Source: Roseobacter sp. SK209-2-6 (GTDB lineage: Bacteria; Pseudomonadota; Alphaproteobacteria; Rhodobacterales; Rhodobacteraceae). Taken from it: a stretch of 64,000 bases of DNA. The stretch is from assembly GCF_000169455.1 (NCBI RefSeq), contig NZ_AAYC01000007.1:124001-188000 (forward strand). Direction: 5' to 3'. Position numbers and translations under genes: made by a program. The notes beneath the pieces are model-generated. The model was not told the origin of the DNA. It worked only from the letters and a program-made list of their open reading frames with translations, and searched no databases. Of the stretch, positions 55,684 through 62,153 are shown piece by piece. Numbering within the stretch: position 1 is the stretch's first letter; each line of letters starts with the position of its first letter.

Positions 55684-56334
55684 ATGTTGGAAAGCCAGAT
55701 CCTGCCTCTCTCACTCCTCGTGCTGATATGCCTTTCCATTGGCCTGTGGCTAAGCCCTGATTTCGTAGCCAGGATCGAGCGGCGGTTTCAGGCCCTGGCG
55801 GATCGCGTGATCCCTGTAGATGGCAGCGGTATTCGCAGCCTGACCAGCTGGGTTGCCCTGCTGGCGATTGCTGTTGCTTTGGGTCTACTGGTGAGTGGTA
55901 CTGCTGAGCCTGCCCGACTGACCTCCCCCGCAGCGCTGGCCTACGCCTATATCTGGGTCCTTATGCTGAGCGGGTTCAGCCTGATCCATTTCTCGGTCAC
56001 CGTACTCAGCGTGCTTTATCTGGCCAGCCGGCGCCGGGAGTTCCATCTGAAGCTTGAGCGGCTGTGGCGTGACACTTTTCTGTCGATGCTCTTGAACATC
56101 GCCAGTTTTGCCCTGCTGTTTCAATTGTTCGGCGTTGTGGACCCGACGGGTGAGATTACCACGCACTGGCGGGATTTGATCTATTTCTCCTCGGTGACCT
56201 TCTCGACCCTGGGATATGGTGACTTCCAGCCAGCCCCGCCCGCGCGCCTTTGGGCCGGGTTTGAGGCGATTATCGGCAATCTTCACCTGGGGATCTTTGT
56301 TGGCTCTATGCTGCTGACGGCAAAGGCGAAATAG
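55684..56334 (+). CDS. Potassium-channel-like membrane protein
   Basis: A 216-residue membrane protein with helices at about residues 5-24, 54-72, 85-112, 130-149 and 188-212. A pore loop at about 162-178 carries the selectivity filter TLGYGD in FSSVTFSTLGYGDFQP. Only one filter is present, so a functional pore would need four subunits. No cytosolic RCK or cyclic-nucleotide domain follows. The ATG is preceded closely by GGGA. It is monocistronic and convergent with the small gene at 56448. Confidence 0.85.
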   Translation: MLESQILPLSLLVLICLSIGLWLSPDFVARIERRFQALADRVIPVDGSGIRSLTSWVALLAIAVALGLLVSGTAEPARLTSPAALAYAYIWVLMLSGFSLIHFSVTVLSVLYLASRRREFHLKLERLWRDTFLSMLLNIASFALLFQLFGVVDPTGEITTHWRDLIYFSSVTFSTLGYGDFQPAPPARLWAGFEAIIGNLHLGIFVGSMLLTAKAK

Positions 56335-57910: not shown

Positions 57911-58234
57911 ATGCATCTGCCGCCAAAAGTGACCGAAAGAGCCTTTGCCCGCCTGAACGAAATCGGCGCGGCAACCCAGGGTCAAGCGCTGCGTATCGCG
58001 GTGGAAGGCGGCGGCTGTTCCGGCTTTCAGTATGAGATCGCCCTGGACGCGCCCAAAGAGGATGACCTGGTGCTGGAAGGTCAGGGAGAAAAGGTCGTTG
58101 TCGACAGCATCTCGCTGCCCTTCCTGGAAAACGCCGTCATCGATTTCACCGAAGAGCTGATCGGCGCGCGTTTCACCATTGAAAATCCCAATGCCTCATC
58201 CAGCTGCGGCTGCGGCACCTCTTTCTCCATGTAG
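57911..58234 (+). CDS. erpA: Iron-sulfur cluster insertion protein (ErpA/IscA type)
   Basis: A 107-residue A-type carrier that delivers Fe-S clusters to apo-enzymes. The three ligand cysteines are visible in GGGCSGFQY (about residues 35-43) and the C-terminal SCGCGTSF (about 99-106). The ATG at 57911, with GGAGAGA upstream, gives the conserved KVTERAFARL start; an ATG at 57875 lies in the promoter region. ErpA and IscA are hard to separate by eye, and no isc or suf genes are nearby. Confidence 0.87.
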   Translation: MHLPPKVTERAFARLNEIGAATQGQALRIAVEGGGCSGFQYEIALDAPKEDDLVLEGQGEKVVVDSISLPFLENAVIDFTEELIGARFTIENPNASSSCGCGTSFSM

Positions 58235-58314: not shown

Positions 58315-59379
58315 TTATCTTACTGCCTGCATCTCTGCGCGCAGCTGCTGCCATAGCAAAAACAGCCCAGAGGTAATCACGATAAATCCCCCCAAAGATG
58401 TTCCGATTGTGGTCTGCTCCCCAAAGACCAAGGCGCCAATCACCAGCATCCAGACAAATTGCAGATTCATCAGGGCCGTCACCACATGGGCCTGCAGCAG
58501 ACGCAGAGCCACCACAGCCAACCAACGCGCCGCAAAGAGCAGCACTGCATAGGCAAGAACCCAACCAAAATCTGCCAGAGGCATATCCTGCCAGACAAAG
58601 GGCAACACCGGCAGCATCACCAGACAGAGCAACAGATTAGGGTATAGCACCTGCGGTAGATTGGTGCTGTCGTGACGGCTGATATGGCGCGCCAAAATCA
58701 TCGAGCAGGTCCCACAAAAGGCCCCCAGCAGTGCAATTGGATGCCCCCAGGTCAGCACTGCACTGCCACCATTTGAAAACAGGAAAAAGACCCCGGCGAA
58801 CCCCGCCAACAGGGCCGCCCAGGCGCCGGGGGCAACCCTCTCTTTCAATATCCAGCCAGACAGAACCCCGGCCATCAGGGGCATGAGCCCGATAAAGAGA
58901 AACACCTGCGCGAAAGGCAACAACCGAAAAGCGTAGAAAAAGCAAACCGCAGCAAGCAGCGCCGCAATTGACCGCAGCAACATCGCCATCGGGGCATTTG
59001 TGCGCCAGACCTGCGTATGGGGGACCGGAGCGCCGCCATTGGGCACCGCAGCAGATGCTGCCCGCCCGCTAGTTTGGGAAGAAATACTCCGCCCCGCGAG
59101 AAACTGGGACAGCTTTGAGAGCAGAAGACAAAGCCCAGCAACAATTGCACCGGAAAACACATAGAGTTGAGCGGGCGCATAGCCCTGGGCCAGAAGCTTT
59201 GTTATCCCATCCGCTGCAGAGATCGTACCAGTGTAAAGCAGTACCAAGAGCCCGCCTAAAATGGCGCCGCTCTTTAGGCGAATTTGGCCCGGCTGCCCCA
59301 TTCTGAGCCTGGGTCGCTGCTGCGTGGCAACCACCGGAGCTGCCCGCCTAGCCTGCTCTGGGCCAAAGGCCTTGGTCAT
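58315..59379 (-). CDS. EamA/DMT family transporter, third gene of the FSSGS operon
   Basis: A 354-residue inner-membrane protein with ten predicted helices in two EamA repeats (starting near residues 38 and 205). It differs from the DMT protein at 22216 by a hydrophilic N-terminal extension of about 35 residues and a polar loop near residues 104-125. The start overlaps the preceding gene by 4 bases (ATGA) with GGAGGTG upstream, so the two are coupled. The substrate is unknown. The operon context suggests a function linked with the FSSGS protein. The last bases run convergent with erpA. Confidence 0.85.
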   Translation of the reverse strand: MTKAFGPEQARRAAPVVATQQRPRLRMGQPGQIRLKSGAILGGLLVLLYTGTISAADGITKLLAQGYAPAQLYVFSGAIVAGLCLLLSKLSQFLAGRSISSQTSGRAASAAVPNGGAPVPHTQVWRTNAPMAMLLRSIAALLAAVCFFYAFRLLPFAQVFLFIGLMPLMAGVLSGWILKERVAPGAWAALLAGFAGVFFLFSNGGSAVLTWGHPIALLGAFCGTCSMILARHISRHDSTNLPQVLYPNLLLCLVMLPVLPFVWQDMPLADFGWVLAYAVLLFAARWLAVVALRLLQAHVVTALMNLQFVWMLVIGALVFGEQTTIGTSLGGFIVITSGLFLLWQQLRAEMQAVR

Positions 59380-60491
59380 GCGGCACCTCCCAGGGTTTCT
59401 GGGATCATGCCACTGCGGGCAAAATGCTCAAAAAACTCTCCAAAATGATTGGTGCTGCCTTCCGCCAGCAAAAGAAGCCCGGCCTGTGCCTCACTAAGAC
59501 CAGCGAGGATGCTCGCGCGCTGCCCACCCCAGTCCGCCCCCCTACCCACGCCTCCAGTAGAGGAACAGAAGATCAACTGCGAAAGCGCCTGCAATACACC
59601 CGGAACAACGGGTTGATGAAAGCTCACCCCGCCCCCCGAGGCCAGAGGTGCGGAGAAGGCCCCCCCATGGCGGGTGGCCCGCAGCCATTCCTGAACAAAA
59701 TAGACGTGATAATCATCCTGGCCGGAAAACCCGTCCTTCTGAACCTCAAACTGCTCCAAATGACACTGCAGCCAATGTTCCCATTGTCGTGGCACAGCGG
59801 CCCCCGCGTAGCGCAAAGCAACACAGACCTCTGCCAGAAGGTCCGCATCCTGGTCGAGCAAGGCCAGTAGTCCAACGTAGATCAAGCTTTGGTGCGCATT
59901 GGCGCTGAGGTCCGGCGCGGACCGCCCATATTGAGAGAGGTAGAATACTATATGGGTGAGCTCATAACCCGCCTTTTTGTTCGGCAGGCAAAACTGTGAG
60001 CTGGCCTCCATGAAGCGGTGCAATCGCTCCTGCAGGCCGGGAAAATCACATTTGACCCCGCGTCGCACCAGCAGGCGCTGCGCCTCAGCCCGTTGCAGAT
60101 CAGAAAGCTCCTGCTGTGGCAGGCCTTCGACCTGAACCCAGCGTGCCAGATCCGCAGCAATACCGTCTCTGCGAGATAGGGCAAAGCCGCCGCTGGCCGC
60201 CAGATCTTCTAGGTCCATGCAGATCGACAGGAAGAACCTGTAATAGGGACGAAAGAAAAACAGCGCGCGCCGGGCTTCCTGGTAGAAATCGCGCAAAGGC
60301 AAAAGAGCCTCCGCCGCCAAAGTAGGCCCTGTCCCCGTGGCCTCCAGAATATTCAGCAGCTCCGCGTTTTCTTTCAACCAGAGAACGCTTTGCTGGGGGT
60401 GGCGGGCCTGCGCGATTGAGTGGATCAATGCAGTCTGTGCCGCCTGCCCACGTCTGAGCCGCAACTCCGGAAACCTGAGGATTTCAACCAT
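59376..60491 (-). CDS. Protein of unknown family, second gene of the FSSGS operon
   Basis: A 371-residue protein, probably soluble and mainly helical. Visible features are an aromatic patch (ALFFFRPYYRFFLSICMDLEDL, split over its ends, about residues 74-95), a conserved-looking NKKAGYELTHIVFYLSQYG stretch (about 170-188), and a C-terminal TNHFGEFFEHFARSGMIPETL. No catalytic signature or signal peptide is seen. From memory, Rhodobacterales annotations contain a DUF6902 family in such a position, but I cannot confirm that this is it. AAGGAAG lies upstream of the ATG. It follows the FSSGS gene after 121 bases and overlaps the DMT gene by 4. Confidence 0.75.
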   Translation of the reverse strand: MVEILRFPELRLRRGQAAQTALIHSIAQARHPQQSVLWLKENAELLNILEATGTGPTLAAEALLPLRDFYQEARRALFFFRPYYRFFLSICMDLEDLAASGGFALSRRDGIAADLARWVQVEGLPQQELSDLQRAEAQRLLVRRGVKCDFPGLQERLHRFMEASSQFCLPNKKAGYELTHIVFYLSQYGRSAPDLSANAHQSLIYVGLLALLDQDADLLAEVCVALRYAGAAVPRQWEHWLQCHLEQFEVQKDGFSGQDDYHVYFVQEWLRATRHGGAFSAPLASGGGVSFHQPVVPGVLQALSQLIFCSSTGGVGRGADWGGQRASILAGLSEAQAGLLLLAEGSTNHFGEFFEHFARSGMIPETLGGAA

Positions 60492-60575
60492 CTCAACTTC
60501 CTTTCGTGCAATGCCTTTTCAGCGCTCAATCCCCGAACTGTGTGCAAGAAATGCACCTGCTTCTCTTCCGTGGCT

Positions 60576-60600
60576 GGCCCTCCTGGTTTTCAGGAAGGCC
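60576..60600 (-). promoter_or_regulatory. Hairpin between the FSSGS gene and the next gene
   Basis: On the minus strand GGCCTTCCTG and CAGGAGGGCC form a 10-bp stem around a 5-base loop, starting 12 bases after the FSSGS stop. One pair is G-U, which is a mismatch on the plus strand but a pair in minus-strand RNA. There is no T run. It may protect the upstream message or reduce read-through. Confidence 0.5.
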
Positions 60601-60612
60601 AAGGCAGGCTCC

Positions 60613-60978
60613 TCAGCTGCCCGAAGAGAACAGGTGCACCGCCTCCCCGGCCTCACGATCCACCAAGCTAACCGGGGCAGACCCAGAGGAAAACAATTCA
60701 ACCAGCCCCCCCTGGTCGCGGCTGATCTGGCCGCTGGGCGCTGAACCGGAAGAGAACATCTCTACCCCATTACCTGCCCAGGCTGCGGCGCGGGTGCTGA
60801 GCGAGCCAGAACTGAAGAGCTGCGCCCCGCAACCCCGCTCCATGGGTCCGTGTTCCGCAGAAATCGACCCGGAGGAAAACAATGAAACCCCGTCGCCTGT
60901 CAGCAGACATCCGCCTCTCTGCGCATTTGGATTTGAAGACGTGGCGACCTGAGCGGGAAATTTGTACAAAGCAGTCAT
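60613..60978 (-). CDS. Five-repeat FSSGS protein of unknown function
   Basis: A 121-residue protein built from five units, each ending in FSSGS (residues 34-38, 55-59, 75-79, 96-100 and 117-121), preceded by L or M, at intervals of 21, 20, 21 and 21. The last S is the final residue. Between motifs the sequence varies, with a G or V two to six residues before each. Codons differ in every copy. No signal peptide or membrane helix is present, and only two cysteines occur (24 and 50). I suspect this is what databases call DUF6749, from memory. The ATG at 60978 has GGAG 6 bases upstream; starts at 61020 or 61050 would add an N-terminal extension. Confidence 0.8.
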   Translation of the reverse strand: MTALYKFPAQVATSSNPNAQRGGCLLTGDGVSLFSSGSISAEHGPMERGCGAQLFSSGSLSTRAAAWAGNGVEMFSSGSAPSGQISRDQGGLVELFSSGSAPVSLVDREAGEAVHLFSSGS

Positions 60979-61346
60979 AAGGATCTCCATTTTTGAACCA
61001 AGACCACTTGAGGCTGACATGCATTTCCAAGGCAGGTGAAGCCGCGTCACTCAATCAAAGATTGCTCCTTTCCATTTACCCACTTCAATTACTCAATTGA
61101 GGTTACTGTTTATTTTTCAATAATTTATTACGCCCACAAGCCAGGGTTCAGACTATCCACAAGGCGGTATTTGCAAGGTCAATTCAAATTACCATAGATT
61201 GAATCCGCGATTTTTGCAAATCCACCGCCGAACCTGCCGCGAGTTCAGCCTGAACGATTCGACAATTCCCAGCGGATGCTTGCCCCCATAGCCGCTTTGC
61301 GCGATAGCTGTTGCCAGCCACAAATTCGGTCCCGCAGGAGAACCTC
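60979..61346. promoter_or_regulatory. AT-rich divergent spacer between the FSSGS operon and xth
   Basis: A 368-base spacer that is markedly AT-rich at 61050-61200. On the minus strand a TTGACC box (about 61178) with TGGATA 17 bases on is a possible promoter, which would give a 5' leader of about 170 bases for the FSSGS gene. A CTCAATTGAG palindrome lies at about 61092-61101. No clear promoter could be assigned for xth on the plus strand. Confidence 0.45.
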
Positions 61347-62153
61347 ATGAAAATCGCCAGCTTCAATATCAACGGCATCAAAGCGCGAGCCGCTGCTCTG
61401 CCTCAATGGTTGGATGAGGCGCAGCCGGATGTGGTTCTGCTGCAGGAAATCAAATCGGTAGATGAAGCTTTCCCGCGCGAACTCTTTGAGGAGCGCGGTT
61501 ACAATGTCGAAACCCATGGGCAGAAAAGCTTCAACGGCGTTGCCATCCTGTCAAAACTGCCCCTGGAGGATATTCGGCGCGGCCTGCCCGGGGATGACAG
61601 CGATGAGCAGGCCCGTTGGATCGAAGCCACAGTAGTGGGCAAACAGGCACTGCGTATCTGCGGCCTCTACCTGCCAAATGGCAACCCGGTTGAGCTGGAG
61701 GTGGACGGAAGCCCTGTGGCGGGTGGCAAATACGCCTATAAGCTTGCCTGGATGGAGCGGTTGCATAAGCGCGCGCAGGACCTCCTGGCGGAAGAGACCC
61801 CTGCCCTGATGGCGGGCGATTACAACATCATCCCCCAGGCCGAAGACGCCAAGCGCCCGGAAGCCTGGCGCGAGGATGCCTTGCACCGCCCGGAAAGCCG
61901 CGCGGCCTATCAGCAGATTGTGAACCTCGGCTTCACCGAAGCCTTCCGCGCCCGTCACCAAGGCCCTGGGCATTATTCCTTCTGGGACTATCAGGCGGGT
62001 GCCTGGAACCGAGATGATGGCATTCGCATTGATCATTTCCTGCTATCACCACAGGCCGCTGACCTACTGCGCGATTGCCAGATCGACAAAGAGATCCGCG
62101 GTCGGGAAAAGCCCTCGGACCATGTCCCAATCTGGGTGGATCTGGACCTGTAG
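61347..62153 (+). CDS. xth: Exodeoxyribonuclease III
   Basis: A 268-residue Mg-dependent AP endonuclease and 3' exonuclease of base-excision repair. Motifs are FNINGIKAR (about residues 5-13), QEIKS with the catalytic Glu (about 34), AGDYNIIP (about 152-159), and the C-terminal RIDHFLLS and SDHVPIW. The ATG at 61347 has AGGAG 7 bases upstream and gives the standard MKIASFNIN start. Confidence 0.94.
   Translation: MKIASFNINGIKARAAALPQWLDEAQPDVVLLQEIKSVDEAFPRELFEERGYNVETHGQKSFNGVAILSKLPLEDIRRGLPGDDSDEQARWIEATVVGKQALRICGLYLPNGNPVELEVDGSPVAGGKYAYKLAWMERLHKRAQDLLAEETPALMAGDYNIIPQAEDAKRPEAWREDALHRPESRAAYQQIVNLGFTEAFRARHQGPGHYSFWDYQAGAWNRDDGIRIDHFLLSPQAADLLRDCQIDKEIRGREKPSDHVPIWVDLDL

Follow-up and report, generated by a model that had tools for sequence, protein, structure and literature searches.

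Several families of ribosomally synthesised and post-translationally modified peptides (RiPPs), such as the cyanobactins, multicore graspetides and fungal dikaritins, derive from precursors with multiple cores, each flanked by conserved recognition residues, and the enzymes of these systems are YcaO proteins together with proteases, ATP-grasp enzymes and DUF3328 proteins. The yeast alpha-factor precursor likewise carries one short peptide repeated between diverging spacers, with a sequence that differs by species, and is matured in the secretory pathway by Kex2 and Ste13. Here, we describe a locus in a 64,000-nucleotide stretch of Roseobacter sp. SK209-2-6 (contig NZ_AAYC01000007.1, positions 124,001 to 188,000; hereafter the window), in which a 121-residue protein with five FSSGS repeats is encoded upstream of a DUF6902 protein and a drug/metabolite transporter (DMT). 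With the known multicore RiPP precursors it shares several cores with recognition residues alongside, and with alpha-factor the repeated short peptide, the diverging spacers and a lineage-specific sequence; it differs from the former in that its constant partner is DUF6902, and from the latter, which is eukaryotic and has no DUF6902 counterpart. We consider it reasonably probable that the repeat protein is a multicore RiPP precursor modified by the DUF6902 protein, usually with an exporter at its side.

The genes and residues concerned are the following (window positions):

60613 to 60978, minus strand: putative multicore precursor, 121 aa, N-terminus MTALYK, five FSSGS cores (re-translation: 121 aa plus stop)
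60865 to 60879, minus strand: core 1, FSSGS, residues 34-38 (re-translation)
60802 to 60816, minus strand: core 2, FSSGS, residues 55-59 (re-translation)
60742 to 60756, minus strand: core 3, FSSGS, residues 75-79 (re-translation)
60679 to 60693, minus strand: core 4, FSSGS, residues 96-100 (re-translation)
60616 to 60630, minus strand: core 5, FSSGS, residues 117-121, the C-terminus of the precursor (re-translation)
59376 to 60491, minus strand: DUF6902 protein, 371 aa, putative core-modifying enzyme (PF21843, E 2.2e-135; PF21836, that is DUF6895, E 1.3e-16)
59952-59954 (H180), 59841-59843 (D217), 59829-59831 (E221) and 59706-59708 (H262), minus strand: conserved residues of the DUF6902 protein, which also include D259 and Y261 (conservation)
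58315 to 59379, minus strand: DMT/EamA transporter, 354 aa, optional, possible exporter (PF00892, E 1.3e-14)

Re-translation bore out how the first-pass annotation of this DNA had read the repeat: the FSSGS copies are spaced by 21, 20, 21 and 21 residues, the last S of the fifth copy is the final residue of the protein, and the Ser-Ser pairs are encoded by TCC-TCC, AGT-TCT, TCT-TCC, TCC-TCT and TCT-TCG. The 4-bp overlap it gave for the DUF6902 (60491-59376) and DMT (59379-58315) genes is also present, and the DUF6902 start lies 121 bp beyond the precursor stop. At 60500-61100, no DNA tandem repeat was detected by Tandem Repeats Finder down to a score of 30, and the repeat therefore resides in the protein only. 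Searches of Pfam and NCBIfam up to E 1 gave no match for the precursor, no signal peptide was apparent in it by eye, and scans for promoters (2 versus 1.1 ± 1.1) and terminators (8 versus 4.7 ± 2.7) gave counts near those of shuffled sequences.

Of 394 genomes sampled across the window's family, 108 have a match to the Pfam profile of DUF6902; across the class the figure is 4 of 240, three of these lying within the same family and one being a sub-cut-off match outside it. A scan of named genome contigs returned 388 relatives; the best 80 of the 388, examined by title, included Phaeobacter, Leisingera, Ruegeria, Shimia, Tritonibacter, Roseovarius, Rhodobacteraceae and Rhodobacterales entries as well as two named only as Alphaproteobacteria, and plasmids and viral contigs held no relative at the sensitivity used. 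Neighbourhoods were compared in a set of 116 loci (the 108 minus one contig-edge fragment, together with one outlier and eight further loci of the window's genus). In 113 of the 116, a repeat precursor is encoded at most ~0.6 kb upstream of DUF6902, and it is this recurrence that speaks against a chance origin of the repeat. Using a profile built from six precursors at E 0.001, whole-genome searches matched 98 of the 394 genomes, all of them among the 108 with DUF6902, and none of the 286 DUF6902-negative genomes (Fisher p 9e-82). The ten DUF6902-positive genomes without a profile match comprise seven with a precursor that by eye has diverged, one with the contig-edge fragment outside the locus set, and two with none. 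Because a crude control, in which any tetrapeptide had to occur at least three times, is weak (passed by 94 of 102 precursors and by 209 of 6676 other open reading frames, ORFs), the argument rests on recurrence and pairing. As expected of a RiPP locus, a short precursor gene thus sits beside a dedicated partner gene, whose product would be the enzyme. At one of the 113 loci, L040 from the window's genus, precursor and DUF6902 both appear broken, with the DMT gene and the neighbours still present.

The first-pass annotation had treated the three genes as one unit and asked whether they always occur together. This linkage holds for the precursor and DUF6902 but not for the transporter: the DMT gene lies directly downstream in only 87 of the 113 loci with enough sequence and is absent from 26, so that a strict transporter link was rejected.

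To compare repeats between loci, units were recruited with a matrix over positions -9 to 0 that was seeded with FSSGS-like units and blind to positions +1 to +4 at recruitment. At least two units were found in 180 of 194 loci (the 116 plus 78 named ones), and eleven of the 14 loci below two have repeats that, by eye, depart from the matrix or were missed. Core statistics were taken from 101 precursors of the 116-locus set with 666 units; residue-identity figures leave out units with fewer than two of four core matches, unless described as unfiltered. The common layout is a stretch of ~30 residues followed by 2 to 20 units (median 6 copies per precursor), each made of a spacer ending in G-[DE]-x-[VT]-x-[MLA]-F and a core x-[S/T/C]-x-x at +1 to +4, and the precursor ends exactly at +4 in 65 of 101 cases. 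Part of the N-terminal consensus, M-x-A-[LQ]-x-K, stems from the choice of start codons, which favoured A at residue 3; the K at residue 6, present in 74 of 98 precursors, was not favoured in this way.

Forty majority pentapeptides occur in the 101 precursors, led by FSSGS (28), FTSWS (13), FTSGS (7), FSSGA (5) and FTSGL (4), with many singletons and with FTCGL and FITSC among the rest. Within a precursor, identity at +1 to +4 is 0.99, 1.00, 0.98 and 0.99, compared to 0.35, 0.77, 0.37 and 0.50 between precursors. One tetrapeptide is used throughout in 89 of the 101, with a mean core identity of 0.971 (both unfiltered), and the spacer positions -12 to -7 reach just 0.25-0.35 identity even within a precursor. 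Position +2 is mostly S, which is the majority residue there in 88 precursors, against T in 9, C in 3 and N in 1. Around the core, identity within and between precursors is 0.98/0.97 for G(-6) and 0.93/0.89 for F(0), values which follow in part from the construction of the matrix, and 0.81/0.71 for P(+6), a position outside it. These patterns suggest that the repeated motif is a variable core, usually uniform within a precursor and differing between lineages, and combine a conserved recognition part with a variable core as in RiPP precursors. A pattern of conserved flanks around a changing FSSGS had been named in the first-pass annotation as one that would argue against a repeat-based system; the outcome is mixed, in that residues +1 to +4 do vary across lineages while P(+6) is conserved, but are uniform within most precursors.

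Sameness of the copies is held at the protein level, as codon identity at identical residues with four or more codons is no higher in cores (0.46) than in spacers (0.48). This upholds the earlier view, taken from the window alone, that selection acts on the peptide, and for the same reason recent duplication or conversion of DNA was dismissed as the general cause of the likeness between copies. Such events clearly contribute in some long near-identical arrays, e.g. L135/L048 with 20 copies. Matches of the long L048 precursor to the Pfam families Herpes_UL35 and DUF4245 were also rejected, since they seem to reflect composition and none of the individual stretches passes on its own.

A lineage-specific core between recognition flanks predicts copies that are uniform within and variable between precursors, and this distinguishes a multicore precursor from two rivals, both of which we regard as improbable. 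In the first, the repeats would be carrier-peptide handles on which DUF6902 together with enzymes of the cell builds or alters an amino-acid-sized product, to be cleaved off later and exported through the DMT protein, in the way that pearlins and LysW serve in carrier-peptide pathways. Amino acids and small molecules are the usual export cargo of DMT/EamA proteins, and the frequent exact end at +4 would suit such a role; a constant small product is, however, hard to square with +1 to +4 residues that vary by lineage yet are uniform inside most precursors, the transporter is missing from more than a fifth of the loci, and the window's cassette holds no ligase-type gene. In the second, an unprocessed repeat protein would act in the cytosol as a multivalent docking scaffold for several DUF6902 or other partner molecules, in assembly or regulation. 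The range of copy numbers, the regular spacing and the lack of an apparent signal peptide agree with this idea, but with a partner so well conserved, a docking motif would be expected to be conserved too. In contrast, every copy of the core can differ between loci whose DUF6902 proteins are 75-79% identical: L145 (FCSAS x8) and L146 (FSSGS x8), a pair with 79% identity between their DUF6902 proteins, differ at two of the four residues in all copies. Of the three options that the first-pass annotation had left side by side (repeated-core precursor, docking scaffold and modification substrate), the repeated-core peptide precursor now has the strongest support, and the earlier interpretation as a whole stands in part.

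Core history is partly inherited and often switched. On a quick FastTree tree of 99 DUF6902 proteins, in which 34 of 96 inner branches are weakly supported, the tetrapeptide changes 55 times, compared to a mean of 68 after shuffling and a minimum of 38 for 39 states. Cores differ between two Marivita loci and among the Phaeobacter-named loci. Mixed cores within one precursor were seen for FSTSC and FSSGS in L036, L187, L192 and L211 (the last three from Ruegeria), which are possible intermediates of core switching, and for FTSGS with FTTSA in L197 and FCSWS with FSSLS in L160. In L161, a second short open stretch with LFGSSC twice follows the FTSGS precursor upstream of DUF6902, possibly giving two precursors with different cores at one locus.

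The 371-residue protein had been described as of unknown family. Pfam does hold its family, the domain-of-unknown-function family DUF6902: PF21843 matches residues 1-360 over profile positions 1-351 with 451.6 bits (cut-off 27). The same protein matches PF21836 (DUF6895) with 61.3 bits (cut-off 23.8), and since the DUF6902 score is far higher, we place DUF6902 as a sister family of DUF6895. In the reverse direction, a weak match to DUF6902, below the cut-off, was obtained with three of five DUF6895 proteins, and profile-profile comparison (hhalign) aligned the two families over 155 columns including H180 and E221 (E 3.4e-10, 19% identity). DUF6895 shares with DUF6902 a homologous central region, the motifs Y-x-[LI]-T-H-x-x-F-Y...G, D-[LV]-x-x-E and Y-H, and an adjoining precursor-like ORF; it differs in being a separate Pfam family, whose precursors combine a leader-like helical part with a W/Y-rich end and lack the F-x-S-x-x multicore. 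Eight DUF6895 proteins have invariant H188, D229, E233 and Y290-H291 (numbering of L302:5718-6686), which correspond to H180, D217, E221 and Y261-H262 in DUF6902, the YH pair being matched by eye past the end of the hhalign alignment. Searches of solved structures by sequence and profile with DUF6902 and DUF6895 gave nothing convincing (best E 0.24), PADLOC models of anti-phage systems matched none of the three window proteins up to E 0.1, PHROGs gave no match for DUF6902 or the precursor, and a search of one literature library on DUF6902, DUF6895, FSSGS and multicore repeats in roseobacters found no paper on this system.

Conservation was scored in 112 DUF6902 proteins over 320 aa, after four fragments had been dropped. 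H180 is kept in 110 of the 112, and only L039 (H180Q, D217L, E221R, H262T) and L120 (H180R, D217S) are without both H180 and D217. Three of the 116 loci lack this repeat, and these two are among them; the remaining one, a DUF6895-like outlier (L045), has all of the conserved residues and, upstream, a short ORF of another type. The loss of H180 and D217 where the repeat is gone, seen at two loci, is the strongest argument for an action of these residues on the repeat protein.

DUF6895 is named as a lasso-peptide epimerase family in the title of ACS Catal. 2026, 16, 1757 (reference 371, PMC13352647). Because DUF6902 is homologous to DUF6895, peptide epimerisation is our leading guess for its chemistry, though one held well short of even confidence, and the near-fixed S/T/C at +2 would be compatible with a side-chain reaction as well. 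The described lasso epimerase MslH works on the C-terminal residue, using Ca(II) and two His/Asp pairs (PMC10406935). DUF6902 likewise conserves a His/Asp/Glu/His set. MslH differs in having a calcineurin-like fold; neither the DUF6902 nor the DUF6895 profile had a convincing match among solved structures. Between xthA and the ErpA/HesB gene, the interval examined, lie only the three genes of the cassette, with no lasso B (recognition/protease) or C (asparagine-synthetase-like cyclase) gene.

Short precursor-like ORFs lie beside DUF6895 in 7 of 8 loci, from three Pseudomonadota genomes and four plasmids (Streptomyces, Kitasatospora, Pseudalkalibacillus). They are found upstream, in L302 with one ORF between, and some have a repeated unit or a leader-like 'SG[ILV]..' helix. 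At 3451-7603 of L302 (Streptomyces fungicidicus plasmid p1), two adjacent DUF6895 genes, a 231-aa ORF, a 62-aa ORF and a gene for a cytochrome P450 may form an uncharacterised RiPP cluster. The DUF6895 proteins of L301 (6722-8455) and L300 (6983-8737) have a C-terminal extension; that of L301, which had no useful sequence match among solved structures, holds QQSTGGAFG, reminiscent of the repeats of alpha-alpha toroid cyclases.

In most loci the cassette is present or absent at one chromosomal slot, without movement. Its borders in the window, both outside the system, are:

61347 to 62153, plus strand: xthA (exodeoxyribonuclease III), upstream border (NCBIfam TIGR00195/TIGR00633)
57911 to 58234, plus strand: ErpA/HesB-type Fe-S insertion protein, downstream border (TIGR00049, above cut-off)

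A divergent xthA lies upstream in 108 of the 116 loci, and an ErpA/HesB-type gene was found in 102. In 12 DUF6902-negative genomes, HesB and a dGTPase gene are adjacent in all 12, with xthA within 1.5 kb in 10; the same-genus genome L306 has an xthA-HesB gap of ~84 bp, an empty site, and the gap reaches up to ~1.3 kb in others. That the product is an antagonistic bacteriocin-like peptide with DUF6902 as its maturase, its core diversity reflecting an arms race, is the least likely of the alternatives: frequent core changes and presence or absence at one slot would agree with it, but the window's cassette has no further gene and hence no obvious immunity gene, the slot is the same in most loci, and no relative was found in plasmids and viral contigs at the sensitivity used.

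We propose that each precursor comprises the ~30-residue stretch and then, per unit, a recognition spacer and a four-residue core. DUF6902 would recognise the spacer and the F and modify the variable core, acting through H180, D217, E221 and H262, the set in common with DUF6895 proteins. A housekeeping protease would then release many identical short peptides per precursor, probably cutting after +4 because most precursors themselves end there, and at loci with a DMT gene its product may export them. Uniform cores in a precursor would provide dosage of one product, and lineage-specific cores imply that something reads core identity, from which we infer that signalling or self-recognition is likelier than a structural role. 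More tentatively, the system could be a new RiPP class, widespread in roseobacters, and a bacterial counterpart of alpha-factor, in which DUF6902 modifies, in stereochemistry or some other way, many identical four- to five-residue lineage-specific cores, with ~40 cores accepted by one enzyme family and a receptor for them encoded elsewhere in the genome.

Several observations weigh against a modified multicore peptide. No modified peptide has been seen, and the window's cassette lacks a leader-binding protein, a protease and a classical peptide transporter; the N-terminal stretch of the precursor is no obvious leader. Ten named Leisingera loci share one core (FSSGS, few YSSGS), as do four Shimia loci (FTSGL, YTSGL in one), more than one tetrapeptide occurs in 12 of 101 precursors, and the recruiting matrix has built in part of the G(-6) and F(0) conservation. 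On the enzyme side, L039 is a divergent copy (129 bits) with less surely aligned residues, DUF6902 is distant from DUF6895, whose epimerase role comes from one reference title, and no precursor was recognised at the DUF6895-like locus L297.

If the proposal holds, DUF6902, an unannotated family in more than a quarter of the sampled genomes, gains a likely substrate, likely catalytic residues and a testable reaction, and some 40 natural cores paired with one enzyme family would be useful for peptide engineering. The best-known signals of roseobacters are acyl-homoserine lactones, and the cores would be a candidate short-peptide signal in this abundant marine bacterial group. The pattern of cores that are uniform within and different between precursors can also be used in computational searches for similar systems.

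Elsewhere in the window, positions 55684-56334 on the plus strand encode a 216-aa membrane protein without an NCBIfam match at E 1e-10, which, from its single pore motif (TLGYGD), we take to resemble a K+ channel.

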